Program-made: the position numbers and the translations under genes
Part shown: positions 20,006 through 44,182 of the stretch, piece by piece
Layout: each line of letters opens with the position of its first letter
Numbering within the stretch: position 1 is the first letter of the stretch
Source: Streptomyces durocortorensis
Lineage (GTDB): Bacteria > Actinomycetota > Actinomycetes > Streptomycetales > Streptomycetaceae
Direction of reading: 5' to 3'
NCBI RefSeq assembly: GCF_016901035.1
Contig: NZ_JAFEUF010000028.1
Location: 1 to 47,981, forward strand
Length of the DNA: 47,981 bases
The notes under the pieces: model-generated
Database searches by the model: none
What the model saw: the letters and a program-made list of their open reading frames with translations, nothing else
What the model was told of the DNA's origin: nothing

Positions 20006-20034
20006 TTGACCTCCCTGGGGGCAGCAACTAATTT
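20006..20034 (+). promoter_or_regulatory. Promoter of the leader ORF and xdh operon
   Basis: TTGACC (20006-20011) and TAATTT (20029-20034) are separated by exactly 17 bp, a strong housekeeping-sigma match for this genus. The first start codon downstream is the small ORF at 20080. Confidence 0.65.
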
Positions 20035-20079
20035 GCCGTAGACGCCGACCCACAGCCCTCGAAAGGAGGCGACCAGCCG

Positions 20080-20157: not shown

Positions 20158-20362
20158 ACGCGCCCCTCCGCCCGTGCCCTTCCGCGGCACCTTCGGCTAC
20201 CTCGTTCTCCCCTTTTCCCTTCACCTTTTCGCGGTGCCCGCTGTCGCGCGCCGTTTCGCGCCCGCCCGCTCCTCCTCCGTGGGTGCGTACGAATCCAGAG
20301 AGCTGTCCGACATTGACGAAGACGATGAACCGACCGACCGCGCACCGGAACGGGGGCCTGTC

Positions 20363-21840
20363 GTGACGGCGCCGCGCATCACGGTCAACGGGACCGAAAC
20401 ACCGATCTCACCGGCCGCGCCCCACACCACGGTGCTGGACTTCCTGCGCGAGCGTGGCCTCACCGGAACCAAGGAGGGCTGCGCCGAGGGCGAGTGCGGC
20501 GCGTGCGCCGTCCTGGTCGCCCGACCCGGGGCGAACGAGCCCACCGACTGGGTGGCGGTCAACGCCTGCCTGCTGCCGGCCGCGGCGCTCGACGGACAGG
20601 AAGTGGTCACCTCCGAGGGGCTCGCCACCGCCGGCGCGGCCGGCTCACCGGGCACGCTGCACCCGGTGCAGGAGGAGATGGCGGTCCGGGGCGGCTCCCA
20701 ATGCGGTTACTGCACACCGGGGTTCGTCTGCAGCATGGCCGCCGAGTTCTACCGGCCCGACCGCTGCGCGCACGCGGACCCGGCCGAGGGCACCGACCCG
20801 GCCGAGAGCGCCGACCCGGAGCACGGACCGAACGGCTTCGATCTGCACGCGCTGAGCGGAAACCTGTGCCGCTGCACCGGATACCGCCCCATCCGCGACG
20901 CCGCGTTCGCCGTTGGCGCGCCCGCCGACGAGGACCCGCTCGCGCAGCGTCGTGAGCAGTCCCCGCCCGTTCCGGTCGCCACCGAGTACGTCCGGGACGG
21001 CAGCGCGTTCCTGCGGAGGAACACCCTGGGCGAGACCTTGCGGTTGCTGCGCGAGCGGCCCGACGCGGTGGTGGTCGCCGGTTCGACCGACTGGGGCGTG
21101 GAGGTGAACATCCGCGCCCGCCGGGCGGATTGCGTGATCGCCGTCGACCGGCTGGACGAACTGCGGGAGCTGCGCGTCGGATCCGACTCCGTCGAGATCG
21201 GGGCGGCGCTGACGCTCACCGAGATCGAACGCCGCCTCGACGGCCAAGTCCCGCTGCTGGCACAGCTGTTCCCGCAGTTCGCGTCGCGGCTCATCCGCAA
21301 CGGTGCGACGCTCGGGGGCAATCTGGGGACCGGTTCCCCCATCGGCGACAGCCCGCCGGTCCTGCTCGCCCTGGAGGCGTCGGTGGTGCTCGCCGACGCC
21401 GACGGTGAACGCACGGTGCCCCTCGCGGACTACTTCACCGGTTACCGGCAGAGCGTGCGCCGTCCCGGCGAGCTGATCCGCGCGGTACGCGTCCCGCTGC
21501 CGCTGTCGCCGGTCGTGGCCTTCCACAAGATCGCCAAGCGGCGCTTCGACGACATCTCCAGCGTGGCGGTCGCCTTCGCGCTCGATGTCGAGGACGGGAT
21601 CGTCCGGAAGGCCCGTATCGGACTGGGCGGTGTGGCCGCCACCCCGATCCGTGCCCTCTCCACCGAGGAGGCCCTGGAGGGCAGGGCGTGGACGGCGGAG
21701 ACCGTCGACGCCGCGGCGCGGGTACTGCGGGCGGAGGGCACGCCGCTGAACGACCAGCGTGCCAGCGCCGCGTACCGCTCCGCGATGCTGGGCCAGAGCC
21801 TGCTGAAGCTGTACGCGCAGACCACCGAGGCGGTTTCGTC

Positions 21841-21844
<4 letters not shown>
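20363..21844 (+). CDS. xdhA: Xanthine dehydrogenase, 2Fe-2S and FAD subunit
   Basis: A 493-aa electron-transfer subunit. Residues ~5-85 are a plant-type ferredoxin domain with GCAEGECGACAVLV. Residues ~95-175 are the second 2Fe-2S domain, with CGYCTPGF and CRCTGYRP. Residues ~205-375 bind FAD (VVVAGSTDWGVEVNIR, and GGNLGTGSPIGDSPP), followed by the CO-dehydrogenase flavoprotein C-terminal domain. It takes electrons from the Mo centre of XdhB and passes them to NAD+. The GTG at 20363 matches the expected N-terminus; longer upstream reading is low-complexity. A 13-codon overlapping ORF starting at 20327 ends in the GTGA of this start, which may give coupling. Its stop overlaps the xdhB start (ATGA). 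Confidence 0.92.
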
Positions 21845-24334
<2,490 letters not shown>

Positions 24335-24342
<8 letters not shown>

Positions 24343-25171
24343 CATGACCTGGTTCGCCGCGGTCGCGCGGCTGCGAGCACGCCGGGAGGCCGGCGTGCTG
24401 GTGACCGTCGCGACCGTGCGCGGCCACGCCCCTCGTGACCCCGGCGCGAAGCTCGTCGTGGGGCGGAGCGAGACATGGGGCTCGATCGGTGGCGGCAACG
24501 TCGAGGCGGTCACCATCGACCGGGCCCGAGAACTGATCGCAGCGTCCGCGGCCGGACCGGAGCTGATGGATTTCGCCCTGAACGACAAGGTGACCAACCG
24601 GCACGGCGTCCAGTGCTGCGGCGGCACGGTCTCGGTGCTGCTCGAACCGCTGCCGGTGGTACGGGCGGTGGCGATCTTCGGCGTCGGACACGTCGGAATG
24701 GAACTGGCACGCGTCCTGGCACGCCAGAACCTCGACCTCCATCTGATCGACAGCCGCTCGGACCTCCTCACCGAGGAACGGCTCGCCGTCCTCGGGGACG
24801 CGGTGGCGGGGGTGCACGTCCACCACACTCCGCTGCTGCCGGAAGAGGTCCTGGAGCAGTTGCCGCGCGGCACCCACATCCTGATCATGACCCACGATCA
24901 CGCCGAGGACGCCGCGCTGTGCGACGCCGCCCTGCGGACGGCCCACCTGGGTTCCATCGGGCTGATCGGCTCGGCGGCCAAGTGGAGACGCTTCCGCAAA
25001 CGCCTCCTCACGGAGGGCGGCCACGACGAGGCCGCCATCGACCGGATCAAGACCCCGATCGGACTGGCCGACATCACCGGCAAGGACCCCGCGACCATCG
25101 CCGTGAGCGTCGCGGCCGATCTGCTGCTTGCCTTCGAGGCGGAGGGCGTCGACGAGGGCGCGCGACGGTGA
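24335..25171 (+). CDS. xdhC: XdhC, molybdenum cofactor insertion chaperone
   Basis: The 278-aa protein binds and inserts the sulfurated Mo cofactor into XdhB and is not part of the mature enzyme. The XdhC/CoxI N-terminal domain (VLVTVATVRGHAPRDPGAKLVV, SIGGGNVEAV, GVQCCGGTVSVLLEPL) is followed by a Rossmann-type domain (AIFGVGHVGMELARVL, IGLIGSAAKWRRFRKRL). The GTG at 24335 lies inside the xdhB end; an ATG at 24344 is an alternative. It is the last gene of the xdh operon, and the backbone seems to end just after it. Confidence 0.9.
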
Positions 25172-27840: not shown

Positions 27841-28443
27841 CGGTGGGACAGGGAATGCTGGTGCCCATGGAAGACCCAGAGCAGCAGGACAGTGACGACG
27901 TAGAGCCGGACGACGCCTGGGCCTTGGACGGAACGTGGGAGGGAATCCTCACTGCGGTCCTTGCAGCCGCCGACGAGGGCAACGACATCGGCTGGACGGT
28001 ATCTGTGGACTCCACCGTCCGCCGGGCCCACCAGCACACAGCGGGAGCACGAAAAAGGGGGCGCCAGATCGGGCTGAGCCTGACGATCACGGGCTCGGAC
28101 GTTCCCGCGGCGGCCTGAGCACAAGGTGCGTCTTGCTAGCGACAGCCACGCTCGTCCGTTCCCGTTCCCGTCCCGTGCGATCCGGAGCCATCTCCGTCGG
28201 CGCGGGATCCGTGCCGCCATTCCCCAACCGTCCGACCAGGTAGGTCACCGACGGCGACGCGGTCGTGTGGGAAGCCCGCCTGCCACCTTCGACGCCGAGG
28301 CGTACAAGCGGCGCAATGCTGTCGCGCGATGCATCGCCCGGCTCAGGCAGTGGCGTGGTCTCGCAATGAGAACGGACAAGCTGGCCACTGTCTACCTGGC
28401 CGCACTCCATCTTGCTGCCATTCTCATCTGGGCCAGGCGATAG
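27837..28443 (+). mobile_element. IS5-family transposase remnant
   Basis: Three pieces of one transposase follow in order. Frame 1 (27837-28118) has LDGTWEGIL and VSVDSTVRRAHQHTAGARKRG, the region of the first catalytic Asp. Another frame has EPDDHGLGRSRGGLST. The last frame (about 28170-28443) has SRAIRSHLRRRGIRAAIPQP, then EAYKRRNAVARCIARLRQWRGLA, and the C-terminus LAAILIWARR. The central part with the second Asp and much of the N-terminus are missing. It therefore carries at least one frameshift and a deletion and cannot move on its own. Terminal repeats were not found. Confidence 0.8.
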
Positions 28444-28830
28444 ACCTCTGTCTCACCGATGGTCATCCGGCGCGCACTCGGGTCACGTGAGGTCCATGAC
28501 GGGGACCTTCAGCGAGTTCCCGTATGTGAGCCGGTCGTGGGCGCACGGCATTAAGGCCGGGCGCGGAGAGGGAAGGTCTCGCCGCCGGGCGGGGAGGCTC
28601 TGCGGTCAGACCAACAGAGGGGAAAGGGGTCGTTCAAGAGGTCCGGCCGTGGCGAATGGATCGCCACATCCGCGCCACACCCACTCTGCTTCGGGCGACA
28701 GTTAGCAGTGCAAGCCCTCACCACGTGTTCCTGTGCCACTGGACCAGCTCGACATCACCTGGAACAGTTCGAGCGACGCCAGCTGTTCGGTACCGGTCTA
28801 CAACACCCCATAGAGTGAGACCGGGGGCGA
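28444..28830. other. 387-bp gap between IS remnant and SUKH gene
   Basis: No gene or domain is recognised. An in-frame upstream extension of the SUKH reading frame crosses part of it but has no coding signature. A tandem pair of GAGACCGGGGGC (28817-28828, 28829-28840) leads into the hairpin that follows. Confidence 0.5.
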
Positions 28831-28868
28831 GACCGGGGGCGTGTCGTATATCTGATACGCCCCCGGTC
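28831..28868 (+). terminator. Strong hairpin directly before the SUKH gene
   Basis: GACCGGGGGCGT (28831-28842) and ACGCCCCCGGTC (28857-28868) form a perfect 12-bp stem with a 14-base AT-rich loop. It ends 27 bases before the ATG at 28896. It may terminate read-through from the left or act as a 5' UTR attenuator of the SUKH gene. Confidence 0.55.
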
Positions 28869-28895
28869 CAAGCCTTCAATCGGAATGTGAAGAGA

Positions 28896-29414
28896 ATGTG
28901 GATCGAGCGAATCACTGAGGCTACACACTGGGAGCCGCTTCGGCTCGACATTCCCTGGAAAAGCATCGAAGAAGATCTTGGTACTCAACTTCCCGAAGAT
29001 TACAAGAAGCTTGCCGAGACGTTCGGCAAGGGCGAATTCTCGGAGTTCTTGCGTGTTTTCACCGTCGATGCCACGAGGCAGTTCGACCTGGTCAGGATCT
29101 GGAAGAAGTATCTCGAGGGCGGCCCGGAGAGCGGCCCAGATCCCGCCTTCAAGCCCTACCGGATGTACCGGCCAGGTCGGCGCGGCCTCATTCCCTGGGC
29201 GTTCGGTGAGATGAAGTGCAGCTACTTCTGGCTAGCGTCCGCGGATGAGGATCCGGCGAGCTGGCCCATTGCCACACAGGGAGATCCGTATCCCTGGCAC
29301 GAAGTGAACATGTCCACTTCCGAGTTCGTCTGTCGAGTGCTGACCGATCCCGATTTCGAGCCGTTCTCGATCGCGAGGCCGTTTCCGCAGCCTGACTTCT
29401 ATCCGATGGACTGA
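28896..29414 (+). CDS. SMI1/KNR4 (SUKH) family protein, immunity-like
   Basis: The 172-aa cytosolic protein contains the SUKH opening WKSIEEDLGTQLPEDYKKLAETFGKGEF and the later aromatic, acidic C-terminal part (YFWLASADEDPASWPI; YPWHEVNMSTSEFVCRVL) typical of the superfamily. In bacteria many SUKH proteins neutralise polymorphic or contact-dependent toxins. The ATG at 28896 is used because upstream sequence lacks the fold. Base composition is visibly lower in GC than its neighbours, suggesting transfer. It stands alone between two IS5-family remnants, without a toxin gene in sight, so it looks like an orphan immunity gene. Confidence 0.75.
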   Translation: MWIERITEATHWEPLRLDIPWKSIEEDLGTQLPEDYKKLAETFGKGEFSEFLRVFTVDATRQFDLVRIWKKYLEGGPESGPDPAFKPYRMYRPGRRGLIPWAFGEMKCSYFWLASADEDPASWPIATQGDPYPWHEVNMSTSEFVCRVLTDPDFEPFSIARPFPQPDFYPMD

Positions 29415-29423
29415 AAAGTCATC

Positions 29424-29524
29424 TCATTTGGCGAGTCTGTGGTAGCAGATGAGTGTGCAGGCGATGCTGGTGAAGGCCAGGAAGTGATCGGCCTTGCGTT
29501 CGTATTTTAGCTCTGCCCAGCGCG
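29424..29524 (-). mobile_element. C-terminal fragment of a second IS5-type transposase
   Basis: Read on the minus strand, this stretch gives RWAELKYERKADHFLAFTSI followed by ACTLICYHRLAK and a stop at 29424-29426. That is the familiar C-terminus of a Streptomyces IS5-family (IS1647-like) transposase. Only about 33 codons remain, and the left edge (GAAAAGTCATCTC) probably contains the old element end. It is of a different subgroup from the remnant at 27837-28443. Confidence 0.7.
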
Positions 29525-29525
29525 C

Positions 29526-29795
29526 CTACTCGAGGTCTATGGCCGAGTCCGCCGAGGACTCACGGCCCATCGCCTCGGACGGCGTGGCCTTGATGCTGCC
29601 CGGAGCCCAGCCAAGGACTCCCTCGAAGCTTCGGGCAACAATCGGGGTGGGCAGGTCCCCACGGTCGCCTTCGAAGGTCCTGAAGGTCGCCTCACTCAGC
29701 CAGGTGCGGCGCGCGAGTTCACATTCCGAGATGCCTTCGGCCTCACGTAACTCGATGGGGGCTCTCGCCAGCCGCACAGATTCCTCTCGGCTCAT
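29526..29795 (-). CDS. Small helix-turn-helix protein, possibly truncated
   Basis: The 89-aa product contains a XRE-like HTH: LREAEGISECELARRTWLSEATFRTFEGDRG, followed by VARSFEGVLGWAPGSIKAT, the usual end of a Cro/CI-type domain. The final residues after that are nondescript, and the stop lies only a few bases from the transposase fragment at 29524, so the original C-terminus may have been replaced by the insertion. No antitoxin partner gene is adjacent. Ribosome site is weak. Confidence 0.55.
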   Translation of the reverse strand: MSREESVRLARAPIELREAEGISECELARRTWLSEATFRTFEGDRGDLPTPIVARSFEGVLGWAPGSIKATPSEAMGRESSADSAIDLE

Positions 29796-29974
29796 GACCG
29801 CAGTGTGTCGCAGAGCCCAGGCTGGGACAGCCTGCTGACTTTTTCGCCCTCACCATGCAACCGGCGATCGTCACCAGCCCTGACCTGCACGCCAATCCCA
29901 TGACAGAGTCAGATATCAGACAACGAATCGCATACCGCCCTCTGAGACCGTGACCCGACTCGGGCGATCACCGA

Positions 29975-30349
29975 CTACTGCTCGACCTGCATGCGACGGA
30001 CCAAACGACCCTCGAACTCGTACACATGACGGACCTCCTCTCGAGCAAGAACGGAACCGCCCGGGTCGCGAGCCACCAGTCTGACCACGACTTCGATCCG
30101 GCCGTCGCCCCGTTCCCGAAACTGCACAGGCGTGAGAGACAGCCGAAGCTGAGCCCACTGGCGAATCCAGTAGTCGCGGACCGACGCCCGTCCTTCGAGG
30201 TGCCCGCCTTCCCAGCCGTTGGGCCACTGGACATCGGCAGTCATGGCCGCGAGGACCCGATCGATCTCGCGGGCGTTGAACGCCTCGTACAGCTCGCGGA
30301 GCTCCCGCGATCGGGCGGACGTCGACGGCCTGTCGTCACTGTGGAGCAC
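29975..30349 (-). CDS. NTF2-like (SnoaL/ketosteroid isomerase-fold) protein
   Basis: The 124-aa protein, from a GTG at 30349 with AGGA just upstream, has the NTF2-like cone fold pattern: LRELYEAFNAREIDRVLAAMTADVQW, GREASVRDYW-like GRASVRDYWIRQWAQL, and the C-terminal strands VVVRLVARDPGGSVLAREEV and VYEFEGRLVRRMQV. Members act as isomerases, cyclases or small-ligand binders; specificity cannot be told. It is the last gene of the long minus-strand block that begins at 36912, separated from the SDR gene by about 90 bp. Confidence 0.75.
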   Translation of the reverse strand: MLHSDDRPSTSARSRELRELYEAFNAREIDRVLAAMTADVQWPNGWEGGHLEGRASVRDYWIRQWAQLRLSLTPVQFRERGDGRIEVVVRLVARDPGGSVLAREEVRHVYEFEGRLVRRMQVEQ

Positions 30350-30438
30350 TGAATCATCCTCTCGCCAGAACGCGCGTGCTGCGCTGGTGCTGCGGGCTCG
30401 ACGTCGCCGACCTTCGCGATCGTCAGCGGCCGAGCGGG

Positions 30439-30969
30439 TCACAGTCCACCAGCCGCTCGGATGCTGGCTCCGGTGACATAGCTGGCCTCGGAGCCGAGCA
30501 GCCAGACGATGGCCGGAGCGATCTCGTCGGGCTCTCCGGCTCGGCCCAACGGGATACGTGCGGCAGCGCGCCCGGCGCGGTCCGGATCCCCGGCATCGGC
30601 GTGGATCCTCGTGTGCACCGTGCCCGGCGCCACGGCATTGACCCGGATCCCTTGATCGGCGACCTCCTTGGCGAGTCCCACGGTCATCGCTTCGACCCCG
30701 GCCTTGGCTGCGGCGTAGTGGACGTAGTCGTGTGCCGTCACGTCGCCGGCCACGGCGACGGCTCTCACGCCGTGGTCCTGTGCTGCTGCGGCTGCCCTCT
30801 CGGCGGCAGCGCGGTCGTCGCGGTAGCCGACGATCAAGTCGTGTCCTGCACGCGCCAGGTGCGCGACGGTGGCGGCGCCGATCCCTCGCGCCCCGCCTGT
30901 GACGATCGTGAGCGGACGGACTGCCGGTGGCACGGGTCGTCCCGCGGGTCGGCTTCGTGTGTCACTCAT
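30439..30969 (-). CDS. Short-chain dehydrogenase with internal deletion
   Basis: The product has only 176 aa, against about 245-250 for classical SDR enzymes. The cofactor motif VTGGARGIGAATVAHLARAG is intact, as are the C-terminal parts: HYAAAKAGVEAMTVGLAKEV (YxxxK), IRVNAVAPGTVHT and ASYVTGASI. After AVAGDVTAHD the sequence jumps directly to YVHYAAAK. The ~70 residues in between, which carry NNAG and the catalytic Ser, are missing in frame. Catalysis is therefore very unlikely. It is a decayed gene, or possibly a deletion in assembly. The ATG at 30969 overlaps the ABC gene stop by 8 bp. Confidence 0.75.
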   Translation of the reverse strand: MSDTRSRPAGRPVPPAVRPLTIVTGGARGIGAATVAHLARAGHDLIVGYRDDRAAAERAAAAAQDHGVRAVAVAGDVTAHDYVHYAAAKAGVEAMTVGLAKEVADQGIRVNAVAPGTVHTRIHADAGDPDRAGRAAARIPLGRAGEPDEIAPAIVWLLGSEASYVTGASIRAAGGL

Positions 30970-32734
30970 GGTTGTCAGTCCCCTCGTGGCTGGTGTCTGC
31001 ACTCCAGGTTTCCCAGAGGGCTGCGTAGGAGGTCGCGGTGGTGACGAGGTGGTCGTGGTGGCCGAGCTCGGTGATGCGGCCCCCTTCCATGATGGCGATG
31101 CGGTCAGCGTCTCGGGCTGTCTGGAGTCGGTGGGCCACGGCGATGATGGTGCGGCCCTGGATGGTGGCGGCGAGGGCTAGTTCGGTGCGGCGAGCGGTCG
31201 TCGGGTCCAGCAGGGCGGTGGCCTCGTCGAGGACGAGGGTGTGGGGATTGGCGAGCAGGACTCGGGCGAGCGCGACGTGCTGGGCCTGGGCGCCGCCGAG
31301 CCGATGGGTGCCGAGGTCGGTGTCGAGCCCGTCGGGGAGGTCGTCGAACCAGTCTGCGCCGAGGACGTCGAGGGCCTCGAGGAGCTCGGCGTCGGTGGCG
31401 TGAGGTGCCGCGATGGTGAGGTTGTCGCGCAGCGGGTCGGCGAACACGTGGTGCTCCTGGGTCACCAGGACGATGTGCTGGCGAAGCTGCTCGGGTGCGA
31501 GGTCGGCGACGTCCGCACCGCCCACGGTGACCCTCCCTGATCGGGGACGGTCGATGCCGGCGATGAGGCGACCCAGGGTGGTCTTGCCTGCTCCCGACGT
31601 CCCCACGACGGCGAGACGCTCGCCGGCCCGGACGTCGAGGTCGACACCGTGGAGGACGTCGGCCCCGTCGTAGGCGTAGCGGACGTCGGTGACGACGATG
31701 TCCTGGTCGGTGGGGACGGCCGTGACGCCCTCGGCGCTGCGTCGTGGCGGTTCCGCTGACGAGGCGAGGCCCTCGATGCGGGCGAACGAGGCGGCGCTGC
31801 TCTGCAAAGTCTCCACCCAGATCAGGATCGTGTCGATCGGGGTGGTGAGCTGGCGCAGGTAGAGGACGACCGCGACGACGGTGCCGAGGCTGAGCCGGTG
31901 GTCGAGGTAGAGCAGGCCGCCCACGCCGAACGCGGCGCCGACGGCAAGAGCGGTGGAGGCGTCGATGGTCGAAAAGAACACGCTCCGCAGGCGAAGGGTG
32001 CGCAGCTGGGCGGCTGTCGCGGCAGCGATCGCGGACGAGCAGTCGGCGGCCCGCCGCTCCTGCAGGCCGAGCGCTTCCACCGTCCGGGCGCCGGCGGCGG
32101 TGCCGGCCAGGACGTCGGCGACCTCGGCATGCGCGGCTGCCTGGGCCAGATAGGCCGACCGGGCGCGGCGCAGGTACCAGCGCAGGACCACGGGGATGGC
32201 GACGAGTGCGACCAGTCCGACGGCGCCCAGCACGGGGGAGAGCAGGACGACGGCGACGATGATGATCAGCGCCTGGGCAAGGGCGAACACCATCTCTGGC
32301 GCGGCGTCGCGCAGAGCGAACGACACCAGGCCGGCGTCGGTCGTGGCACGTGAGGTCAGGTCGCCGGTGCCGGCCCCTTCGACTGCTCGTGCAGGGATCC
32401 GCATGAGCCGGTCGGCCAGCTGCTCGCGCAGTCGGGCGGCGGTCCGTTCGCCGAACCGGTAGCCCAGGCGGCGGGCCTGGTGCCCGATCAGGAGCTGCGC
32501 GGCCGCGGCAAGCACCACGAGGAGGCCCAACCGGTCGATGGTCGCGACGCCGGCCCCGGCCTGCACCTCGTTGACGATCTGCCCGAGCAGCCACGGCCCG
32601 ACCAGACCTGCGCCCGCCGCCGCGCAGTTGGCGAGGAGCACGGCGATGAATGCTGCGCGGTCGGAGCGGATGAGCCGCCACGCAGCACGGCGGACCTCGC
32701 CGGGCTCTGCCACCGGCAACGGCTGCGCGCTCAT
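30962..32734 (-). CDS. ABC exporter half, intact Walker motifs, altered signature
   Basis: A 590-aa half-transporter: a six-helix exporter membrane domain (about residues 20-310) and a C-terminal ATPase (about 345-580). The ATPase has Walker A GTSGAGKTT, Q-loop VTQEHHVF, Walker B with catalytic Glu (TLVLDEATALLD, Glu about 504), and H-loop His (AVAHRL, about 535). The signature motif is changed from LSGGQ to LGGAQAQHV (about 479-483). Its partner, encoded just upstream with an ATGA overlap, has the opposite pattern, so they should form a heterodimer with one working ATP site. Substrate unknown; the adjacent TetR and hydrolase genes suggest a toxic small molecule. Confidence 0.87.
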   Translation of the reverse strand: MSAQPLPVAEPGEVRRAAWRLIRSDRAAFIAVLLANCAAAGAGLVGPWLLGQIVNEVQAGAGVATIDRLGLLVVLAAAAQLLIGHQARRLGYRFGERTAARLREQLADRLMRIPARAVEGAGTGDLTSRATTDAGLVSFALRDAAPEMVFALAQALIIIVAVVLLSPVLGAVGLVALVAIPVVLRWYLRRARSAYLAQAAAHAEVADVLAGTAAGARTVEALGLQERRAADCSSAIAAATAAQLRTLRLRSVFFSTIDASTALAVGAAFGVGGLLYLDHRLSLGTVVAVVLYLRQLTTPIDTILIWVETLQSSAASFARIEGLASSAEPPRRSAEGVTAVPTDQDIVVTDVRYAYDGADVLHGVDLDVRAGERLAVVGTSGAGKTTLGRLIAGIDRPRSGRVTVGGADVADLAPEQLRQHIVLVTQEHHVFADPLRDNLTIAAPHATDAELLEALDVLGADWFDDLPDGLDTDLGTHRLGGAQAQHVALARVLLANPHTLVLDEATALLDPTTARRTELALAATIQGRTIIAVAHRLQTARDADRIAIMEGGRITELGHHDHLVTTATSYAALWETWSADTSHEGTDNHE

Positions 32735-35052
32735 GCCTGGATCTCGGGGTCGTGGGCGCTGGTGACCGGTCGTCCGCGGTGGACCAGAGCGGCGTAGGCG
32801 GGGTTGGCCAGCAAGGCGGTGTGGGTGCCGCTTGCGACCACCCGGCCGTCGGCGAGCAGGTGCACCACGTCGGCTCCTTGCAGCACGAGCGCGGACGTCG
32901 AGGTGACCAATGTGGTCTTGCCGCGACGGTGGTGGGTGAGGCGGTCGACGACGGTGGCCTCCGTGGCAGCGTCGAGCGCCGAGGTCGGGTCCACCGCGAG
33001 CAGGACGGTCGGGTCGGCGATCGTCGCCCGAGCGAGCCGGACGCGTTGGCGTTGACCGCCGGAGAGGTTCCGTCCCCCGGAGTCGATCCTCGACCCCAGG
33101 CCCTCGGGCAGGCCCCGCACCACGTCGTCGGCGGCGGCGGTGTGCAGCGCGTCCAGGATCGCAGCCTCACCGAGGTCGGCGACGTCGAGGCGACCGGCCA
33201 CCACCTGGGCCAGGGACCCGGCGAACAGGGCGGCGTCGTTGTCGGCCACCAGCACCTGCTTGTGCAGCTGGGCGGGATCGAGCTCGGAGGTCGGCTGCCC
33301 GGCCCAGGTGGCACCTGGGCGGAAGCCGCCGAGCCGGTCGACGAGGGCCACGGCGTCGGAGTACTGGGCGGTGGCGACCGCAGCGAACGTCCCCGGTGCG
33401 ATCCGCAGCCCGGAGGCCTCGTCGATCAGGTCTCCACGCCCCGGGGGCACCGCCGAGCCGGTGCTGTCGGGGCGCACGTCAAGGAAGTCGGTCACCCGAC
33501 GTGCGGCCACGAGAGCCTGGCTGAGATCGAGCGCGCCCTCGATGAAGGAGGCCACCGGCACCGCCAGCACCGCGGCGTAGCCGGCGACCGCGACCAGTTC
33601 GCCCACCGTGATGCTGCCCTCGACCGCGAGCCGGGCGGCCAGCCACACCACCACTGCGGAGAACAGTGTCGGCAGCCCCAGACCGGCTGCCTGGATCACG
33701 CTCGTGACGCGGCCGACCCGATAGCCGTGCTGCAGCAGCCGCTGTGACTCGGCGCGGAAACGGTCGGCGTAGACCGCTTTTCCGCCCAAGCCGTTCAGGA
33801 CGCCCAGCCCCGCGACGATGTCCACGATGCGACCCGTCACTCGGCTCTGCTGCTCGCGATACGGCGTACCGACCGTCCGGAGCCGGCGCGTCGCCGGGCC
33901 CACGACCAGGGCCAGGACCGGAACCCCCGCCAGCACGACCACAGCCAGTAGCACGGAGATCCGCAACAGCAGCACCGCGATCACCACGTAGGCGAGCACC
34001 GCACCGACTCCCGGCCCGGTCGCAGTGAGGCTGCGCCCGATCGTCCACGCGTCCCCACCTCCGATGGCCACGACCTCCCCGGTGAGCGCGCGACGCGCCA
34101 TCGTGTCTCCCAGACGGATGCCGTGGGCGTTCACCTCTGACACCGTCCGCAGCGCCGCATCCATGCGCACCCGGGTCATGGTGCGATGCCGCCAGATGCT
34201 CAGGCCCGCCAGGACGCCCCCGACCAGGAGCAGGACAGCCGTCCACCCCAGCACCACGTTCTGCTGGCTCTTCGCGAGGCTGTCGATCGCACGGGACAGC
34301 ACGTACGGCGGTAGGGCGAGCCCCATCATCCAGGCGCTGCCGAGCACCGCTCCGAGCGTGACCCGGCCGCGCTGCCGGGACACGAGCCACGCCAAGTACG
34401 ACCACGGCCCACGGGTGTGGGGGCGCCGCGGCGGCACGGTGCTCCGGCGCATGTGTCGGCGTCCCCATGCCTTGCCCGTCCGGACCACGACGACCAGCAG
34501 CACGGCGAGAAGTGCGGCGGAGGTCGCCGGGACGAGGTCCAGAGGCAGCGTGTAGCTCATCACGACCCGAGCCGCAGCATCGATGAGGAAGGCCAGTCCG
34601 AAGCCCCAGGTCATGCCCCGCATCGCTCGCCGAAAGGTCTCGCTCGTCTCCCAGGACCGGTGCCAGTCCTCGGCCGGCGCCGGGGGCATGAAACCGACGG
34701 TCGCCGTGAAGACGAGCGGTCGTGCCCGCAGCAGCGACAGCAGGACCCAAACTCCGACGAAGCCGGTCAGATAGCTCTCGCGGGCCATCAGGAGCCGCGA
34801 GTCGGCAGTCATGAGGCCGATCGCAGTCCCGACGGTGATGAGCCCGAGAACGAAGAGGCTCGCCCCGGGGACGCGCCGCCGAAGGACCAGGCCGGCGCTC
34901 AGGCGGAGCATGGGCAGGGCGGCCCCGGTGAGGAGCGCTGTCCAGACGGATGCGCCCAGTGCGCGGAGCACGTAGTAGGACGCGAGCGGGACGACGAGGT
35001 CGATGAGGAGGAAGCCGGTGAAGGCGGCCGGACCGCTTCTCGGGGCCCTCAT
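32731..35052 (-). CDS. VC0807-domain/ABC exporter fusion with degenerate ATPase
   Basis: The 773-aa protein is longer than a normal half-exporter. Residues ~1-205 form a separate membrane domain resembling VC0807-family proteins (LLIDLVVPLASYYVLRALG; TADSRLLMARESYLTGFVGV; DWHRSWETSETFRRAMR). Residues ~220-515 are an ABC exporter membrane domain and ~530-765 an ATPase. The P-loop is lost (FAAVATAQYSDAVALVD), the catalytic Glu is Pro (AVDPTSALD, about 689) and the H-loop His is gone (LVTSTSAL). Yet the signature LSGGQRQRVRLARA (about 663) is perfect. It would supply the signature to its partner's Walker motifs. The start ATG overlaps the TetR gene stop (ATGA). Confidence 0.85.
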   Translation of the reverse strand: MRAPRSGPAAFTGFLLIDLVVPLASYYVLRALGASVWTALLTGAALPMLRLSAGLVLRRRVPGASLFVLGLITVGTAIGLMTADSRLLMARESYLTGFVGVWVLLSLLRARPLVFTATVGFMPPAPAEDWHRSWETSETFRRAMRGMTWGFGLAFLIDAAARVVMSYTLPLDLVPATSAALLAVLLVVVVRTGKAWGRRHMRRSTVPPRRPHTRGPWSYLAWLVSRQRGRVTLGAVLGSAWMMGLALPPYVLSRAIDSLAKSQQNVVLGWTAVLLLVGGVLAGLSIWRHRTMTRVRMDAALRTVSEVNAHGIRLGDTMARRALTGEVVAIGGGDAWTIGRSLTATGPGVGAVLAYVVIAVLLLRISVLLAVVVLAGVPVLALVVGPATRRLRTVGTPYREQQSRVTGRIVDIVAGLGVLNGLGGKAVYADRFRAESQRLLQHGYRVGRVTSVIQAAGLGLPTLFSAVVVWLAARLAVEGSITVGELVAVAGYAAVLAVPVASFIEGALDLSQALVAARRVTDFLDVRPDSTGSAVPPGRGDLIDEASGLRIAPGTFAAVATAQYSDAVALVDRLGGFRPGATWAGQPTSELDPAQLHKQVLVADNDAALFAGSLAQVVAGRLDVADLGEAAILDALHTAAADDVVRGLPEGLGSRIDSGGRNLSGGQRQRVRLARATIADPTVLLAVDPTSALDAATEATVVDRLTHHRRGKTTLVTSTSALVLQGADVVHLLADGRVVASGTHTALLANPAYAALVHRGRPVTSAHDPEIQA

Positions 35053-35658
35053 CGTGGCTCCGTGGCCTGCAGTGCACGTCGGACGATGGTGACCAGGTGC
35101 TCGGCGTGGCCTCGTGGGTCAGCCGTCGGGTCGCAGGCGGCGCGGGCCGCGGCGGCGTCGATCGACGCCCGCATCGTCATGGCCAGCACCCCGGCGTCCA
35201 CATCCGCGGCCTCACCCGTCGCCTGCCCTCGCTCGATCAGCTCTCGCAGGTGGGCACTCAGGGGATCCTCGCCTCCCGGGGGGCCGTCCGCAGGTCGCAT
35301 GTTCGCCGCCACCTCCATGACTGCGCGCACGTGCCTCGGATGGTCGGCGACGAAAGTGAGGTTGCTCCTGATGCAGGTCGCGAGCTCGCCGATCACCGAG
35401 TCGCTGTCGCCCGTCACCTGGCCGATCTGCCACCCGGCCTCGCGGTAGAGGGAGGTCACCACCTCGCTCAACAAGTCCTCCTCGGTAGGGAAGTGGCAGG
35501 TCACCACTCCGTTGCTGACGCCTGCGCGGCAGGCAACCTCGGCGACGGACGTGCCTGCGCAGCACGTCCACCGCGCAGTCGACCAGCTCGGCTTTCCGGG
35601 CCAAGCCGCCGGGCGACGGGGTGGGTGAAGGTGTCGTACGCAGGTGCGAATCTGACAC
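35049..35658 (-). pseudogene. TetR-family regulator with frameshift in the HTH region
   Basis: From a GTG at 35658 the frame gives LARKAELVDCAVDVLR, the first helix of a TetR domain, and then loses sense. The frame used from 35507 onward gives, when read back upstream, GTSVAEVACRAGVSNGVVTCHF and then PTEEDLLSEVV, the rest of a perfect TetR DNA-binding domain. The two join at about 35550-35562, so one base has been gained or lost. The remainder is a TetR ligand-binding domain of about 140 aa. If real, no full-length repressor is made and the downstream ABC genes would be deregulated; a sequencing error is possible. It lies 25 bp downstream of the DUF1330 gene. Confidence 0.7.
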
Positions 35659-35683
35659 CGCCGTCCTTACGGGGGCGACGACC

Positions 35684-36031
35684 TCAGCGCGATGCCGGGG
35701 CGTTCCGGATGGCCTGCGCGGTGGCGCTCGGGTCGTAGTCCTGGGGAACGCCGCCGACGAGGATGATGTCGCCCTGGATGTGCCGGGAGCGAAGGGGTGC
35801 GATCTCCCGGTAGGCGGGAGAGTCCCACCAGTCCCTGGCCTCGTTGATCCCGGGAAAGCCGATCACCACGACGTGTCCGGCCCACGCGCCCTCCTTCACC
35901 TCCGGTGGCGTGCCGTGCACGAGGAAGCGACCCCCGAAGGGCTCGAACGTGCCGGCGATCCGCTCCATGTACTCGGCGACGTCCGGGTGCGGCTCGGCGT
36001 CGCGCAGATGGGCGATGGCGTAGGCAGTCAC
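35684..36031 (-). CDS. DUF1330 family protein
   Basis: The 115-aa cytosolic protein has a dimeric ferredoxin-like fold by family resemblance: YAIAHLRDAEPHPDVAEYMERI, GGRFLVHGTPPEV, WAGHVVVIGFPG and ARDWWDSPAYREIAPLR. That last segment is the hallmark of DUF1330. Function in the family is not established. The GTG at 36031 overlaps the stop of the dienelactone hydrolase (GTGA), so the two are co-translated and may act on the same compound. Confidence 0.8.
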   Translation of the reverse strand: MTAYAIAHLRDAEPHPDVAEYMERIAGTFEPFGGRFLVHGTPPEVKEGAWAGHVVVIGFPGINEARDWWDSPAYREIAPLRSRHIQGDIILVGGVPQDYDPSATAQAIRNAPASR

Positions 36032-36912
36032 AGAAGGTTCCTATCTGGAGAGGGCCGGTTCGCGTGAGCGTCAGTCGAGCGGTCTGAGTCGGCGTGGCCG
36101 TGAAGCCGTTGGACAAGGAAGTCGAGGATCTCGTCGCGTGCCGTGGCGGTCGGTTCGCCCTCGCGATCGACGAGGTGAACAGTGACCACGCTGTGGGGAT
36201 AGGGAACGTGAGCAGCGAAGAACGGCGGTGCATCACGATTCGCGGCAGTGTCGGGGAGTTCGCGGCTGACGAAGGAGTCACCCAAGGCTTGCGCGTAGGC
36301 ATCGAAGCGTGCCCTGGTGCAGACCTTGTCACCCTCGAATCGGTAGGCCAGGACGGTGAGATCGTCACGGTCGAGACGTTCCTTCACGGCGGTGAGCTCG
36401 GCGTCGCTGATCTCCAGGACACCCGGCTCATCCAACGGCAGGGACGGCTGGCAGGCCACCGGCGCGACGACGGCGCTCTCGAGCATCATGGTGATGGCGA
36501 AGTTGCCGGTGAAGCACATCCCGACCGCGCCCACACCCGTCCCCCCGCACTCACGGTGCGCCGAGCGAGCGAGGGCCATCAACCACGTCGTGATGGGGCT
36601 CGACTCGCCACCGCCGAGTGCGCGGAACTCCTTCGAGACGCAGAGACGACGAAACACCTGTGCCCCGCTGTCGGCGTCACCGAGGGCGCCGTCGGTGCCG
36701 AAGAGGGAAGGCAGGTAGACCGTCATGCCACGATCGCGGACCCATCGGGCGAAACGAGCGACGTGTGGGCTGATGCCGGGCATCTCGTGCATCACGATCA
36801 CACCGGGACCGTCACCGCTGACATACACGCGACGCACCTGACCGAGGAGCGAGATGGACCGCACGGTGAAGTCGGCGAGGTCGTCGTCTTGGGTCACGTC
36901 GTGATCCGCCAT
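36028..36912 (-). CDS. Dienelactone hydrolase family protein
   Basis: The 294-aa cytosolic alpha/beta hydrolase matches carboxymethylenebutenolidase-like enzymes: VIVMHEMPGISPHVARFARWV, the nucleophile elbow GMCFTGNFAI with Cys, an acidic site in YRFEGDKVC and a late His in YPHSVVTVH. It should cleave a lactone or ester. About 40 C-terminal residues rich in Asp, Arg and His exceed the usual length. It is the first gene of the minus-strand block that continues through DUF1330, TetR, the ABC pair and the SDR. The GlxA-type regulator starts divergently, with a 113-bp gap, and is the likely local controller. Confidence 0.82.
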   Translation of the reverse strand: MADHDVTQDDDLADFTVRSISLLGQVRRVYVSGDGPGVIVMHEMPGISPHVARFARWVRDRGMTVYLPSLFGTDGALGDADSGAQVFRRLCVSKEFRALGGGESSPITTWLMALARSAHRECGGTGVGAVGMCFTGNFAITMMLESAVVAPVACQPSLPLDEPGVLEISDAELTAVKERLDRDDLTVLAYRFEGDKVCTRARFDAYAQALGDSFVSRELPDTAANRDAPPFFAAHVPYPHSVVTVHLVDREGEPTATARDEILDFLVQRLHGHADSDRSTDAHANRPSPDRNLL

Positions 36913-37025
36913 GGAGGTCCCCCCGCGATGGATCGTCGCGGAGTGCGGCCGATCTGGTGACTACGATGGATCACTATGAAGTCCTTGAGGGAGCGAGACC
37001 GGCCACATTCCGGGCGGTTCGAGAC

Positions 37026-37964
37026 ATGACCTCGGTCCGCGTCCTGGATCTCGAGGGAGCGATGGCCACCTCCGTGGCCATCACGGTTGATGTCCTCGAC
37101 ACCGCGAACCGGCTGGCCCTCCGATCGGGACGGGCCAATCAGTTCGACGTCCAGCCCTGGGTCGCCAACGGCTATGGAGACGCAACGGATCCGGTGGATC
37201 TCGTGGTCGTCCCTGGTCTCGGGATGAGAAACACCCAAGAGGTTCGCAGCCGACTCGCAGCGCCCGATGCCAGAGCGGGGGCGCACTACTTGAAGGAAGC
37301 CGCCACAGCAGGTAGCGAGATCGCAGCCTCGTGCGCCGGAGTGTTCCTCCTCGCCGAAGCCGGCATCCTCGATCAGCGACGTGCGACTACCACCTGGTGG
37401 CTGGCGCCGCTGTTCGCCTGCAGGTACCCCGCAGTTCGGTTGACACCTGCTGATCTCGTCGTCACCGACGGCCCGGTGACAACCGCAGGGGCAGCCTTGG
37501 CGCACCTGGACCTGATGCTGACTCTCGTAGGGCGTCACGCTGGGGAGGCGCTCGCCCGGGAGTGCGCCAGGTACCTCGCGGTTGACCGTCGTCGGTCGCA
37601 GTCTCCCTACGTGATGCCCGAGACGATCGGGGGCGCCGACAGCGATGTCGCAATCGCGCGGTCGTGGGCGCTCCAACACCTCGACACAAGCATAGGGGTG
37701 AGGGACTTGGCCGCCGCCGCACACCTCAGTCCGCGCACCCTCACCCGCAGAATCAGCGAAGCCACAGGTATGTCACCTGCTCGATTCCTACGACGCCTGC
37801 GTGTCGAGCGAGCTGTCGAACTTCTACACAACACTGACCTCGCCGTCACCGGAGTCGCCCATGCGGTCGGGTACAGCGACCCGACGGCACTTCGACGGGC
37901 CATGAGCCAAGAACTCGGCATGAGCCCCCGGACAGTCCGCGGACAGCGCACCCGCGCCCACTGA
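37026..37964 (+). CDS. GlxA-type AraC regulator with DJ-1/PfpI domain
   Basis: The 312-aa product (ATG at 37026; a GTG at 36957 would add 23 residues absent from the family) has a DJ-1/PfpI-like N-terminal domain, residues ~1-165, with the Cys elbow AASCAGVFLLAEAGI and TWWLAPLF. The C-terminal ~100 residues are a double helix-turn-helix AraC domain (VRDLAAAAHLSPRTLTRRIS; VTGVAHAVGYSDPTALRRAM). GlxA-type proteins usually activate a neighbouring divergent operon in response to a small metabolite. That would be the dienelactone hydrolase block here. Confidence 0.85.
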   Translation: MTSVRVLDLEGAMATSVAITVDVLDTANRLALRSGRANQFDVQPWVANGYGDATDPVDLVVVPGLGMRNTQEVRSRLAAPDARAGAHYLKEAATAGSEIAASCAGVFLLAEAGILDQRRATTTWWLAPLFACRYPAVRLTPADLVVTDGPVTTAGAALAHLDLMLTLVGRHAGEALARECARYLAVDRRRSQSPYVMPETIGGADSDVAIARSWALQHLDTSIGVRDLAAAAHLSPRTLTRRISEATGMSPARFLRRLRVERAVELLHNTDLAVTGVAHAVGYSDPTALRRAMSQELGMSPRTVRGQRTRAH

Positions 37965-38030
37965 ATGACATCCGCGACCGGCGCGCCCCATCGCCTTGCA
38001 CGAGAGCGTCCGAAGGCCGTCGGCACTCGG

Positions 38031-38056
38031 CTCGGCCGAGGGTCCTTCAGCGGACC
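38031..38056 (+). terminator. Two adjacent small stems after the GlxA gene
   Basis: CTCGGCCGAG (38031-38040) is self-complementary and is followed at once by GGTCC (38041-38045) pairing with GGACC (38052-38056). They lie 65 bp after the regulator stop, in the gap before the convergent gene. A terminator role is plausible but weakly supported. Confidence 0.3.
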
Positions 38057-38118
38057 AGATGACCGGAGGGCGTCAGTCACCAGAGCAGGATCGTCATCCG
38101 CACGATCGGAGATGTCGC

Positions 38119-38673
38119 CTACGGCCGTCGCCCGAACGAGTCGAGCAGCCGGATCTGTGGTGACGCGTCAGCAGGCAGCGTTCCGCTCGGACCGGCACCA
38201 TACGCTCCGAAGGAAAGCATTTCGTCCAGGTGCGGCTCGACCGTGTTCAGCACGCCGAGAACAGTCTGCGGATCGAGGGTCTCGTCGAGACGCGCGGCAC
38301 GCAAGAGGTCCCACGCGTGCACTACCAGGTCGACGAGACGGAATCGCAAGTAGGCGGCGACGGGAACATTTCCGTTCGGGCCCGCGACCTGTTGCCCGGG
38401 CGATGTCGCGAAGAATGCCTGTGCTTGGCGCTGTGCGGACTCACTCACGTCAGCGACTGGGTCATCGCCGACCTGCTTGGCTGCGAGCATGGCGCGGGCC
38501 TCGCCGCGACCAACACCTGCCAGCAGAAGTGCGGTGAAGCGGTTCCCCACCACCACGTGCTCAATCAACTCGCGTGCCGAGATTCCCGACGGCGTCGGTT
38601 GCTCCGACGAGTCCGCGGGCAATTGGCGCACAACTCGTTCGAACTCTGCCGAAGCTGCCCTGATCAACTCCAT
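38119..38673 (-). CDS. TIGR03086-type DinB/maleylpyruvate isomerase-like protein
   Basis: The 184-aa protein has the mycothiol-dependent maleylpyruvate isomerase N-terminal fold (a four-helix DinB-like bundle). Characteristic pieces are SARELIEHVVVGNRFTALLL, with the first metal-ligand His, and RLVDLVVHAWDLLRAARLDE, with the second; the C-terminus ends in LLDSFGRRP as in TIGR03086 members. Such proteins are thought to handle mycothiol conjugates in detoxification. Upstream, TAGCCT (38681-38686) lies 7 bases before the ATG with no ribosome site, so the mRNA may be leaderless. Confidence 0.8.
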   Translation of the reverse strand: MELIRAASAEFERVVRQLPADSSEQPTPSGISARELIEHVVVGNRFTALLLAGVGRGEARAMLAAKQVGDDPVADVSESAQRQAQAFFATSPGQQVAGPNGNVPVAAYLRFRLVDLVVHAWDLLRAARLDETLDPQTVLGVLNTVEPHLDEMLSFGAYGAGPSGTLPADASPQIRLLDSFGRRP

Positions 38674-38680
38674 GTGCTAC

Positions 38681-38686
38681 AGGCTA
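38681..38686 (-). promoter_or_regulatory. -10 box for a leaderless transcript
   Basis: On the minus strand TAGCCT fits TANNNT and is separated by exactly 7 bases from the ATG at 38673. The spacing matches that seen before matB. Confidence 0.45.
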
Positions 38687-38901
38687 GCGGCACGAGCCGC
38701 TCGTCCGGGAGGCGACCAACCCGACTTGCCTGCATACCCCCGGCAAGGATTCGGCCGGTTCCACTCCACGAGCTGCGTCTCTCGAGGGAATCCCGTACTG
38801 GTCACGCTCCGGTGACTATCGGGCGCACGCTGAGCGTGCCACAACAGGATCGATCAACGGGACGCAGTTCCGTGGAGCCGTCGAGCAGCGCGATCGGTCG
38901 G

Positions 38902-39170
38902 TCAACGTCTCCGGAGTAGGTGGTGGACCGCCCCGCTGGGGCTGGGGACGACGTCGTGATGGAATCGGTCATCGAGCTCGTCCGGGGACTGCCAGAGCCT
39001 GGTGCTCGGACGAGCTCCAGGGGGAGACCGCTACGTACAGGGTGTCGACCGGATCCGCCTCGAGGAAGGCGCGGATGGTCCGCGCGCCCCCGCCGAGGTG
39101 GACGTCCCGACCGTCGGCTGCTGCCCGGGCCTGGGCCAGGGCTTTGTCGGGGTGTCGTCGACGACACACA
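38902..39170 (-). pseudogene. Decayed RibD-like/dihydrofolate reductase family gene, 3' part
   Basis: Pieces of one protein appear in order but in changing frames. VVDDTP is followed, in another frame, by DKALAQARAAADGRDVHLGG, GARTIRAFLEADPVDTLYVAVSP, and then, in the first frame again, by LWQSPDELDDRFHHDVVPSP and SGAVHHLLRRR before a stop at 38902-38904. This is the C-terminal half of an actinobacterial RibD C-terminal/DHFR-fold reductase. At least two indels are needed, and the N-terminal half is not found upstream. The gene is dead. Confidence 0.7.
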
Positions 39171-42313: not shown

Positions 42314-42448
42314 GCCGTGAGCCCGGGTGCGGGAGTCTCCCCCGCGCTCCAGGTTTGACCCGGGCTTGGGGAAAACGGTTCGCCCGTGACGTACGGCGTA
42401 CGCGAAACTAGGTCGGCCTCTGCCTGCCGCCGATTCCGAGAGACCCGC

Positions 42449-44182
42449 GTGCTCATAAAACTCCTGCGGGCCCATCTGGGCCCGTACAAGAAACCCATCG
42501 TGCTGCTGGTGCTCCTCCAGCTGCTCCAGACCTGCGCCACTCTGTATCTGCCCAGCCTGAACGCCGACATCATTGACAACGGTGTCGTGACGGGCGACAC
42601 CGGCTACATCCTGGAGTTCGGCGGTCTCATGATCGCCGTCAGTGTTCTCCAGGTGCTGTGCAATGTGGGGGCCGTCTACTACGGGGCGCGCACCGCCTCC
42701 GCCCTCGGGCGTGATGTGCGGGCCGCCGTCTTCGACCGGGTGCAGTCCTTCTCGGCCCGGGAGCTGGGGCGCTTCGGGGCGCCCTCGCTGATCACCCGGA
42801 CCACCAACGACGTCCAGCAGGTCCAGATGCTGGTGCTGCTGGCGTTCACCCTGATGGTGTCGGCCCCGATCATGTGCGTCGGCGGCATCATCATGGCGCT
42901 CGGCCTCGATGTGCCGCTCTCCGCCGTGCTCCTCGCGGTCGTGCCGGTGCTCGGGATCTCGGTCGGCCTCATCGTGCGCAGGATGGGGCCGCTGTTCCGC
43001 ACCATGCAGGAGCGGCTGGACGGCGTGAACCGGGTGCTGCGCGAACAGATCACCGGCAACCGGGTGATCCGGGCCTTCGTCCGGGACGGGTACGAGGAGG
43101 AGCGCTTCCGGGGCGCGAACACCGAGCTGACCGATGTGTCGGTGGCGACCGGGCGGCTGATGGCGCTGATGTTCCCGACCGTGATGACGGTGGTCAACCT
43201 GTCGTCGGTCGCGGTGGTGTGGTTCGGCGCGCACCGCATCGACAGCGGCGGGATGCAGATCGGTGCGCTGACCGCGTTCCTCGCGTATCTGATGCAGATC
43301 GTGATGGCCGTGATGATGGCCACCTTCATGTTCATGATGGTGCCGCGCGCCGAGGTGTGCGCCGAGCGCATCGAGGAGGTCCTCGGGACCGAGTCGAGTG
43401 TCGTGCCGCCCGTCGCGCCCGTCACCGAGCTGCGGCGGCACGGGCATCTGGAGGTGCGCGGGGCCGAGTTCCGGTATCCGGGTGCGGAGGAGCCGGTGCT
43501 GCGGGCCGTCGATCTGGTGGCCCGGCCCGGGGAGACCACCGCGGTCATCGGGTCGACGGGCAGCGGGAAGTCCACACTGCTCGGGCTCGTACCCCGGCTG
43601 TTCGACGTGACGGACGGCGAGGTGCTGGTCGACGGCGAGGACGTGCGGACGCTGGATCCGGCGCTGCTGGCGAAGACGGTCTCCCTGGTGCCGCAGAAGC
43701 CGTACCTCTTCTCGGGGACGGTGGCGACGAACCTGCGGTACGGGAATCCGGACGCCACCGACGAGGAGCTGTGGCACGCGCTGGAGGTGGCGCAGGCCAA
43801 GGGGTTCGTGGAGGGGCTGGAGCACGGGCTCGACGCGCCGATCGCGCAGGGCGGCACCAATGTGTCCGGTGGTCAGCGGCAGCGGCTAGCCATCGCGCGG
43901 ACGCTGGTGCAGCGGCCGGAGATCTATCTGTTCGACGACTCGTTCTCCGCGCTGGACTACGCGACCGACGCGGCGCTGCGGGCGGCGCTCGGCCGGGAGA
44001 CGGCCGGGGCGACCGTGGTGATCGTGGCGCAGCGGGTGTCCACCATCCGTGACGCGGACCGGATCCTGGTGCTGGACGAGGGCCGGCTCGTGGGGACCGG
44101 CACCCATCACGAGTTGATGGACGGCAATGAAACGTACCGGGAGATCGTGCTCTCCCAGCTGACGGAAGCGGAGGCCGCGTAA
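42449..44182 (+). CDS. ABC exporter half with degenerate catalytic site
   Basis: A 577-aa half-transporter starting at the GTG at 42449 (GAGAGA just upstream). Six membrane helices (about residues 15-300) are followed by an ATPase. Walker A (GSTGSGKST) and the signature VSGGQRQRLAIAR (about 472) are good. The Walker B Glu is Asp (YLFDDSFSALD, about 497) and the H-loop His is Gln (IVAQRVST, about 528). This is the pattern of the degenerate subunit in heterodimeric multidrug exporters such as BmrCD and TM287/288. The stop and next start overlap (TAATG), so it pairs with the next gene product. Confidence 0.88.
   Translation: MLIKLLRAHLGPYKKPIVLLVLLQLLQTCATLYLPSLNADIIDNGVVTGDTGYILEFGGLMIAVSVLQVLCNVGAVYYGARTASALGRDVRAAVFDRVQSFSARELGRFGAPSLITRTTNDVQQVQMLVLLAFTLMVSAPIMCVGGIIMALGLDVPLSAVLLAVVPVLGISVGLIVRRMGPLFRTMQERLDGVNRVLREQITGNRVIRAFVRDGYEEERFRGANTELTDVSVATGRLMALMFPTVMTVVNLSSVAVVWFGAHRIDSGGMQIGALTAFLAYLMQIVMAVMMATFMFMMVPRAEVCAERIEEVLGTESSVVPPVAPVTELRRHGHLEVRGAEFRYPGAEEPVLRAVDLVARPGETTAVIGSTGSGKSTLLGLVPRLFDVTDGEVLVDGEDVRTLDPALLAKTVSLVPQKPYLFSGTVATNLRYGNPDATDEELWHALEVAQAKGFVEGLEHGLDAPIAQGGTNVSGGQRQRLAIARTLVQRPEIYLFDDSFSALDYATDAALRAALGRETAGATVVIVAQRVSTIRDADRILVLDEGRLVGTGTHHELMDGNETYREIVLSQLTEAEAA

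Follow-up and report, generated by a model that had tools for sequence, protein, structure and literature searches.

A probable heterodimeric ABC exporter of Streptomyces with a P-loop-free half and a fused VC0807-family domain

Two questions are raised by a pair of ATP-binding cassette (ABC) exporter genes in Streptomyces durocortorensis: how an exporter may run when one of its halves has no P-loop, and how that same half came to carry an additional membrane domain at its N-terminus. The pair lies in a stretch of 47,981 nucleotides (contig NZ_JAFEUF010000028.1, positions 1 to 47,981), referred to here as the window, and consists of subunit A, a 773-aa degenerate exporter half fused to a VC0807-family domain (32731..35052), and subunit B, a 590-aa catalytic half (30962..32734). 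The two open reading frames (ORFs) overlap by 4 bp and lie on the minus strand, as do the motifs, domains and cassette genes located below unless stated otherwise. Sequence comparison leads us to consider it likely that A and B form a heterodimeric exporter in which only one ATP site works, and that it has a two-step history, in which an old loss of the P-loop was followed by a later fusion.

The two ATP sites of the exporter and its relatives

The two adjoining genes each encode an ABC transmembrane region and a nucleotide-binding domain (NBD), the layout of a heterodimeric exporter. Subunit A is matched by profiles NF041646, ABC_membrane and ABC_tran, with its exporter transmembrane region at residues 247-499 (33556..34314; PF00664, ABC_membrane, E 1.4e-15), and B is matched along its length by PF00664 and PF00005. 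An earlier note on this DNA had proposed checking the NBD of A against ABC_tran; the match begins only at profile position 46, and the P-loop part of the profile finds no counterpart in the protein.

The motifs of A were placed by alignment with five exporters that have a P-loop. At the P-loop place (residues 561-568, 33349..33372), A reads TAQYSDAV, ungapped and of the right length, with no GxxGxGK[ST]. The H-loop His is replaced by Thr, the Q-loop Gln by Asn and the Walker B Asp by Val, and the catalytic Glu, when read back from the D-loop, is Asp. The earlier note had described Pro in place of this Glu, which is one residue off: the Pro is the ordinary one of D-E-P-T-S-A-L-D. Its other observations on A, the missing P-loop and H-loop His and the perfect LSGGQ, agree with the alignment. 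This signature occupies residues 663-667 (33052..33066), as established from ORF translation, alignment and column conservation, and the D-loop is intact alongside it. Subunit B presents the reverse picture. Alignment and column conservation identify its P-loop, GTSGAGKT, at residues 378-385 (31580..31603), with the Q-loop Gln, the Walker B DE and the H-loop His all intact, and the same evidence together with the ORF translation identifies LGGAQ in place of LSGGQ at residues 479-483 (31286..31300), again as the note had described. From these motifs, exactly one complete composite ATP site, the number that the note had arrived at, can form. Subunit B has kept the motifs acting in cis for ATP binding and hydrolysis, A has kept LSGGQ and the D-loop, which act in trans, and the active site would be the catalytic core of B closed by the signature of A. 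The opposite site presumably cannot hold ATP normally, in which case the contact between the NBDs at that site would have to be held by protein and not by nucleotide. In a full-length structure model of A (alignment of 57 chosen rows, with eight near-duplicate A rows left out of the row list), most of the exporter part is predicted with confidence, and the NBD retains its fold, with a predicted local distance difference test (pLDDT) score mostly over 90.

We then asked how these losses are distributed among relatives. Subunit A was matched in 132/199 genomes of the window's genus (E 1e-60 or better, window genome included), in 130/294 genomes from the Nocardioides sp. Root140 family (E 1e-80; one of them, G445, by its VC0807 part alone) and in 23/396 genomes of a phylum-wide draw (E 1e-45, window genome included), 10 of which fall in the window's genus. 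Here and below, the Nocardioides genus and family are the groups of G200, the genome that holds the Root140 locus (L015). Besides the window, 63 loci were read: L009, L014, L015 and 60 stretches selected within the window's genus and the Nocardioides family. The P-loop is gone in all 64 resulting A rows, of which 63 carry SGGQ and one SGGR. The earlier note had held that relatives with an intact P-loop would make this copy simply mutated; with none among the 64 rows, that explanation is ruled out. The 13 phylum-sample matches outside the genus agree without exception, their A frames lacking a P-loop and keeping SGGQ at identities down to 31%; most of their partners end before the signature.

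A wider count found G....GK[ST] in the last 330 residues of none of 123 A frames, a set drawn from overlapping loci in which some genes may be counted twice. Among the 118 frames with readable motifs, the D-loop Asp is present in all, and the catalytic place holds Glu in 100 and Glu or Asp in all 118. In 118/123 cases the A frame is followed directly by a B frame; for the other five, no partner was present in the locus DNA examined. Since the B counts of this survey mixed in neighbouring exporters (20 ISAGQ, 2 LSGGQ), they were not used, and partners were assessed in strict A-then-B pairs instead. The earlier note had suggested surveying whether P-loop loss always accompanies signature loss in the partner: SGG is gone in 71/71 partners with a readable signature, and the P-loop is kept in 114/115 with readable columns. 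In the 64-row alignment, L094 and L104 contributed B rows from a neighbouring exporter pair and L114 has no B row; the pairing was redone strictly, and the constraint subset excludes those two rows, which also entered the tree. That quick tree, with a midpoint root and support from the Shimodaira-Hasegawa-like approximate likelihood ratio test (SH-aLRT) only, has one branch that sets apart 28 A rows and another that sets apart 20 B rows, each with support of 100, and the P-loop state changes once on it.

Matches were also sought beyond Actinomycetota. In the phylum of an Agrilactobacillus genome (G882, L021), five matches of 256-267 bits were obtained in 199 genomes, all with both a P-loop and LSGGQ, and in five other non-actinobacterial genomes the best match to A scored 256 bits. 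The search of 148 genomes from the phylum of G880 yielded no match but had no positive control, and shows little. Taken as sequence evidence, these distributions suggest that the P-loop was already gone in the ancestor of an actinobacterial subfamily, and the simplest reading is that it was lost once, long before the fusion, and that the partner lost its signature in parallel.

Two further exporter pairs were encountered in the same organism. The window's own genome (C585, L009) also holds an A/B pair without the fusion, at 50% identity, in which A has no P-loop and B reads LEAAQ. Another pair, at 42386-46110 of the window (L006, L007), shows ordinary asymmetry. Neither half has lost its P-loop; SGGQ occurs in one together with a DD-type Walker B and Gln instead of His, and SAGE in the other together with intact DE and His.

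Site-by-site conservation was computed on subsets below 75% identity (29 A and 20 B rows). In A, where conservation across the NBD averages 0.63, the signature (SGGQ, QR) and D-loop stand at 0.97-1.0 and the P-loop place at only 0.28-0.76. In B, the glycines and Lys of the P-loop, the Gln and the His reach 1.0 and the Walker B DE 0.95-1.0, whereas the place of LSGG falls to 0.35-0.65. Such a split, with the A signature and D-loop and the B P-loop kept while the A P-loop and B LSGG drift, is the pattern predicted for an exporter that depends on a single composite site.

Several observations weigh against this account. In A, S-P-L occupies the H-loop place and is conserved at 0.97-1.0, the place of the Walker B Glu is conserved at 0.83 and the R-L after the P-loop place at 0.97-1.0; in B, Q483-Q486, following the lost signature, are conserved at 0.90-1.0. 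Conserved columns around the eroded site imply that it is constrained for something. The Walker B DE is intact in 18/118 A frames. In a single partner, L089, no P-loop is read, although its signature columns are missing and it may be cut or misaligned. Every A row was found by similarity to a query that itself lacks the P-loop, and the full-length model of A gives only a poor prediction of the VC0807 part, with block pLDDT of about 43-72. Judging by the conserved columns, the eroded site retains a constrained role, probably a structural one.

An alternative is that ATP or another nucleotide is still held at the degenerate site by contacts that involve no P-loop, and acts there as structural glue, as it does in known degenerate exporters. 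The available part of a review on degenerate-site exporters infers that unhydrolysed ATP remains in the degenerate site and stabilises the closed NBD dimer as a glue or hinge (PMC7756269), and the conserved columns around the lost site, together with the partly kept motif set of A (the acidic residue at the catalytic place and the 18 full DE), fit such binding. Yet A lacks P-loop, Gln and His, and B lacks LSGG. The P-loop columns of A, moreover, drift without settling on a new motif, which fits poorly with the statement in the same portion of the review that degenerate-site sequences have not deviated among orthologues (PMC7756269). We regard nucleotide glue as unlikely here. A bolder form of the one-site account, which we find plausible but hold with somewhat less than even confidence, is that this actinobacterial exporter clade runs on one nucleotide per heterodimer, with the second site serving as a nucleotide-free protein hinge, which would show ATP glue at a degenerate site to be dispensable, and that in the fused form a VC0807 module derived from a TetR-linked membrane protein feeds or gates this one-site engine.

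The VC0807 domain and its fusion to subunit A

The earlier note had also recognised some 205 extra N-terminal residues in A as VC0807-like. Residues 15-190 (34483..35010) match NF041646 of NCBIfam at 126 bits (E 1e-36; 131 bits in the genome), above the curated cut-off of 65 bits, and thus belong to the VC0807 family; the Pfam-A search gave no match for this stretch up to E 0.1. The family is near DUF3159, which is matched by 13 of 39 aligned members. PF04279 (IspA/YciB) weakly matches 4/39 (best E 0.0045) and gives no match to the window domain up to E 0.1. The domain of A shares its profile with family members that, where examined, have no ABC part. Modelled alone with AlphaFold2, it is all-helical, with eight helices and a mean pLDDT of 87.9; by our reading of helix lengths in the model, about six may be long enough to span the membrane, and the charge distribution and the exporter core that follows suggest that both domain ends lie inside the cell. 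Structural searches with this model were uninformative: Foldseek gave 117 matches with E up to 10, none of which reached 0.001, and the best VIA-align Z, 8.4, falls in a range common for helical models and excludes no family.

The fusion is present in four records, all of which keep the 773-aa length of A: the window, S. anulatus JCM 4721 (L014, 96% identity), Nocardioides sp. Root140 (L015, 91%) and S. clavifer (L215, 96.8%), where it is carried on a linear plasmid of 456 kb. Fused copies in G115 and G199 occupy the same place as L014 and probably represent the same assembly. Among 72,556 plasmids, 17 records matched, and only that of S. clavifer covered the whole query. No further VC0807-ABC fusion emerged among the loci examined: L206 and L208 have long frames with no ABC part, and of eight Nocardioides-genus loci, only L228 (the known Root140 copy) has both profiles in one frame.

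A free-standing form of the domain is found in G445, as a 204-aa VC0807 gene that is 74-75% identical and follows an intact TetR gene; in the 16 kb around it, neither exporter half was matched. A TetR gene related to that of G445 (40 bits or more) accompanies 6/7 other VC0807 loci of the Nocardioides genus (L230-L235 among them), as compared with 1/8 Streptomyces VC0807 loci, 0/26 in the phylum sample and 0/60 unfused A/B loci. Unfused TetR-VC0807 pairs occur in 6/59 genomes of the Nocardioides-genus sample. The simplest reading of these sequences is that the fusion joined a TetR-linked VC0807 unit to an existing A-B exporter pair. The gene would have been fused in frame ahead of A, yielding a module of about six helices that resembles TMD0, the extra N-terminal membrane domain of MRP1 and TAP. 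The view that fusion and P-loop loss belong together is not supported: unfused relatives also lack the P-loop, which puts the loss before the fusion, a later and rare event. The two thus appear to be separate events, the fusion being recent relative to the old loss. As a separate observation, L107 (G137) holds a VC0807-like gene, about 35% identical, in frame 4335-5403 on the minus strand, opposite to and beside an unfused A/B pair.

For the fused domain, the earlier note had suggested that it may serve as a gate or a substrate-specific accessory. Under an explanation that concerns the fusion only and is compatible with a single ATP site, the VC0807 domain is a functionless passenger, and recombination simply placed the exporter behind a TetR-controlled promoter, with the fusion as a by-product. 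The existence of unfused TetR-VC0807 pairs, and of unfused A as a family of its own without the domain, is in keeping with this, as is the linker at residues 197-215 (19 codons), whose ratio of nonsynonymous to synonymous substitution rates (dN/dS) is 1.2 and 2.1 against Nocardioides (1.2 for window versus Root140), that is, unconstrained. Between the two Streptomyces the linker ratio is 0.40 and that of the domain 0.55, the latter from few changes. Against Nocardioides, however, the domain evolves like the rest of the protein, with a dN/dS of 0.20 for the window and 0.18 for S. anulatus; the other window-Root140 values are 0.20 for whole A, 0.12 for the transmembrane domain (TMD), and 0.26 for both the NBD and B. 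All four fusion records, in addition, have kept the domain. We consider a passenger a serious possibility, though a rather doubtful one. Through the fusion, the uncharacterised VC0807 family gains its first functional context; our literature search, with most subscription journals outside its coverage, returned no paper naming VC0807.

The shared cassette and its gene content

The fusion sits in a cassette of ~8.8 kb common to Streptomyces and Nocardioides. In window coordinates, the DNA shared with S. clavifer spans 29937 to 38732, that shared with Root140 29942 to 38676 and that shared with S. anulatus 28170 to 38945; no exact repeats of at least 13 bases between the cassette ends were found in the zones compared. 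Evidently, to judge by this shared sequence, the cassette has moved between Nocardioides and Streptomyces.

One cassette end encodes a TIGR03086/mycothiol maleylpyruvate isomerase-like protein (38119..38673), next to a divergent AraC/DJ-1-type regulator on the plus strand (36957..37964; PF12833, PF01965). The operon itself contains a dienelactone-hydrolase-family protein (36028..36912; PF01738, E 2.6e-8), annotated as such at the same place in L215, a DUF1330 protein (35684..36031; PF07045, E 2.4e-23) and, upstream of A, a TetR regulator gene (35049..35640, upper end approximate). Downstream of B lie an SDR oxidoreductase (30439..31002), in which PF13561 matches in two stretches and the alignment breaks, and, at the other cassette end, a SnoaL-like (NTF2-type) protein (29975..30442; PF12680, E 9.4e-10). 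The S. clavifer operon runs in the order dienelactone hydrolase, DUF1330, TetR, A, B, SDR and SnoaL-like, and this copy also has the divergent AraC-type gene and the TIGR03086 protein. From gene content, with hydrolase, SDR and SnoaL-like protein beside the fused A-B operon, our guess is that the system probably serves small-molecule export or detoxification.

Two of these genes are damaged in the window. The TetR frame, open in S. anulatus, Root140, G445 and S. clavifer L215, is broken by a 14-bp gap relative to its relatives, and about 260 bp present in the SDR genes of S. anulatus, Root140 and S. clavifer are missing from within that of the window. Such damage might suggest that the 773-aa protein is likewise a decaying pseudogene and the exporter non-working, but both exporter frames are undamaged and have a low dN/dS, and the signature and D-loop of A are nearly invariant across the family, making decay highly improbable.

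Elsewhere in the window, at 16039-25171, purine permease and xanthine-dehydrogenase-like genes were observed, parts of which resemble Streptomyces, Tsukamurella and Deinococcus plasmid records.

Comparison with known exporters

Placement of extra membrane helices ahead of the ABC core is shared by A with the TMD0 of MRP1 and TAP and with the N-terminal extension of HMT-1, as far as the available text on the latter describes it. The additional module of A is a VC0807-family domain, and the likeness noted here is one of position.

For the exporter as a whole, the Foldseek search with the model of A gave MsRv1273c/72c in the first rows, at 25% identity, and also listed TM287/288, BmrCD and TmrAB. 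The latter three are, like A-B, bacterial heterodimeric exporters; each has one degenerate site, and the P-loop is kept in both halves. TM287/288 and TmrAB are among the systems treated in the available part of the degenerate-site review (PMC7756269). MsRv1273c/72c (PDB 9iqg, 8wcx) likewise combines one consensus and one degenerate site in a heterodimeric exporter. According to the accessible portion of its description, it binds ATP at both sites and its degenerate half, unlike A, keeps Walker A; that portion makes no mention of a VC0807 domain (PMC12038006).

Among the strongest deviations in the review sections available is the yeast PDR transporter Pdr5, in which, as in A-B, every motif of one site is altered: the Walker A Lys to Cys, the Walker B Glu to Asn, the His to Tyr and the signature to LNVEQ; in ABCG5/G8, the Walker A Lys is changed to Arg (PMC7756269). 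Pdr5 is nonetheless eukaryotic, has its NBD before its TMD and shows single-residue changes in Walker A, as opposed to the whole P-loop consensus gone from A. The same sections call the functional advantage of the degenerate site unclear (PMC7756269). Our literature search, again with most subscription journals outside its coverage, showed no bacterial family without Walker A in the titles and abstract starts of the hits listed; among these hits were two papers on ABCB5 that contain the words 'lacks the Walker A'.

The A-B family would challenge the view of degenerate-site ATP as glue or hinge, as put forward in the portion of the review considered (PMC7756269), and, as a natural family with a P-loop-free second site, allows the role of the second ATP to be tested without engineered mutants. 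The degenerate site of A and its relatives has not kept its P-loop, and relative to the asymmetric exporters described in the available parts of the papers compared, MsRv1273c/72c (PMC12038006), Pdr5 and ABCG5/G8 (PMC7756269), its loss goes further, as the earlier note had proposed.

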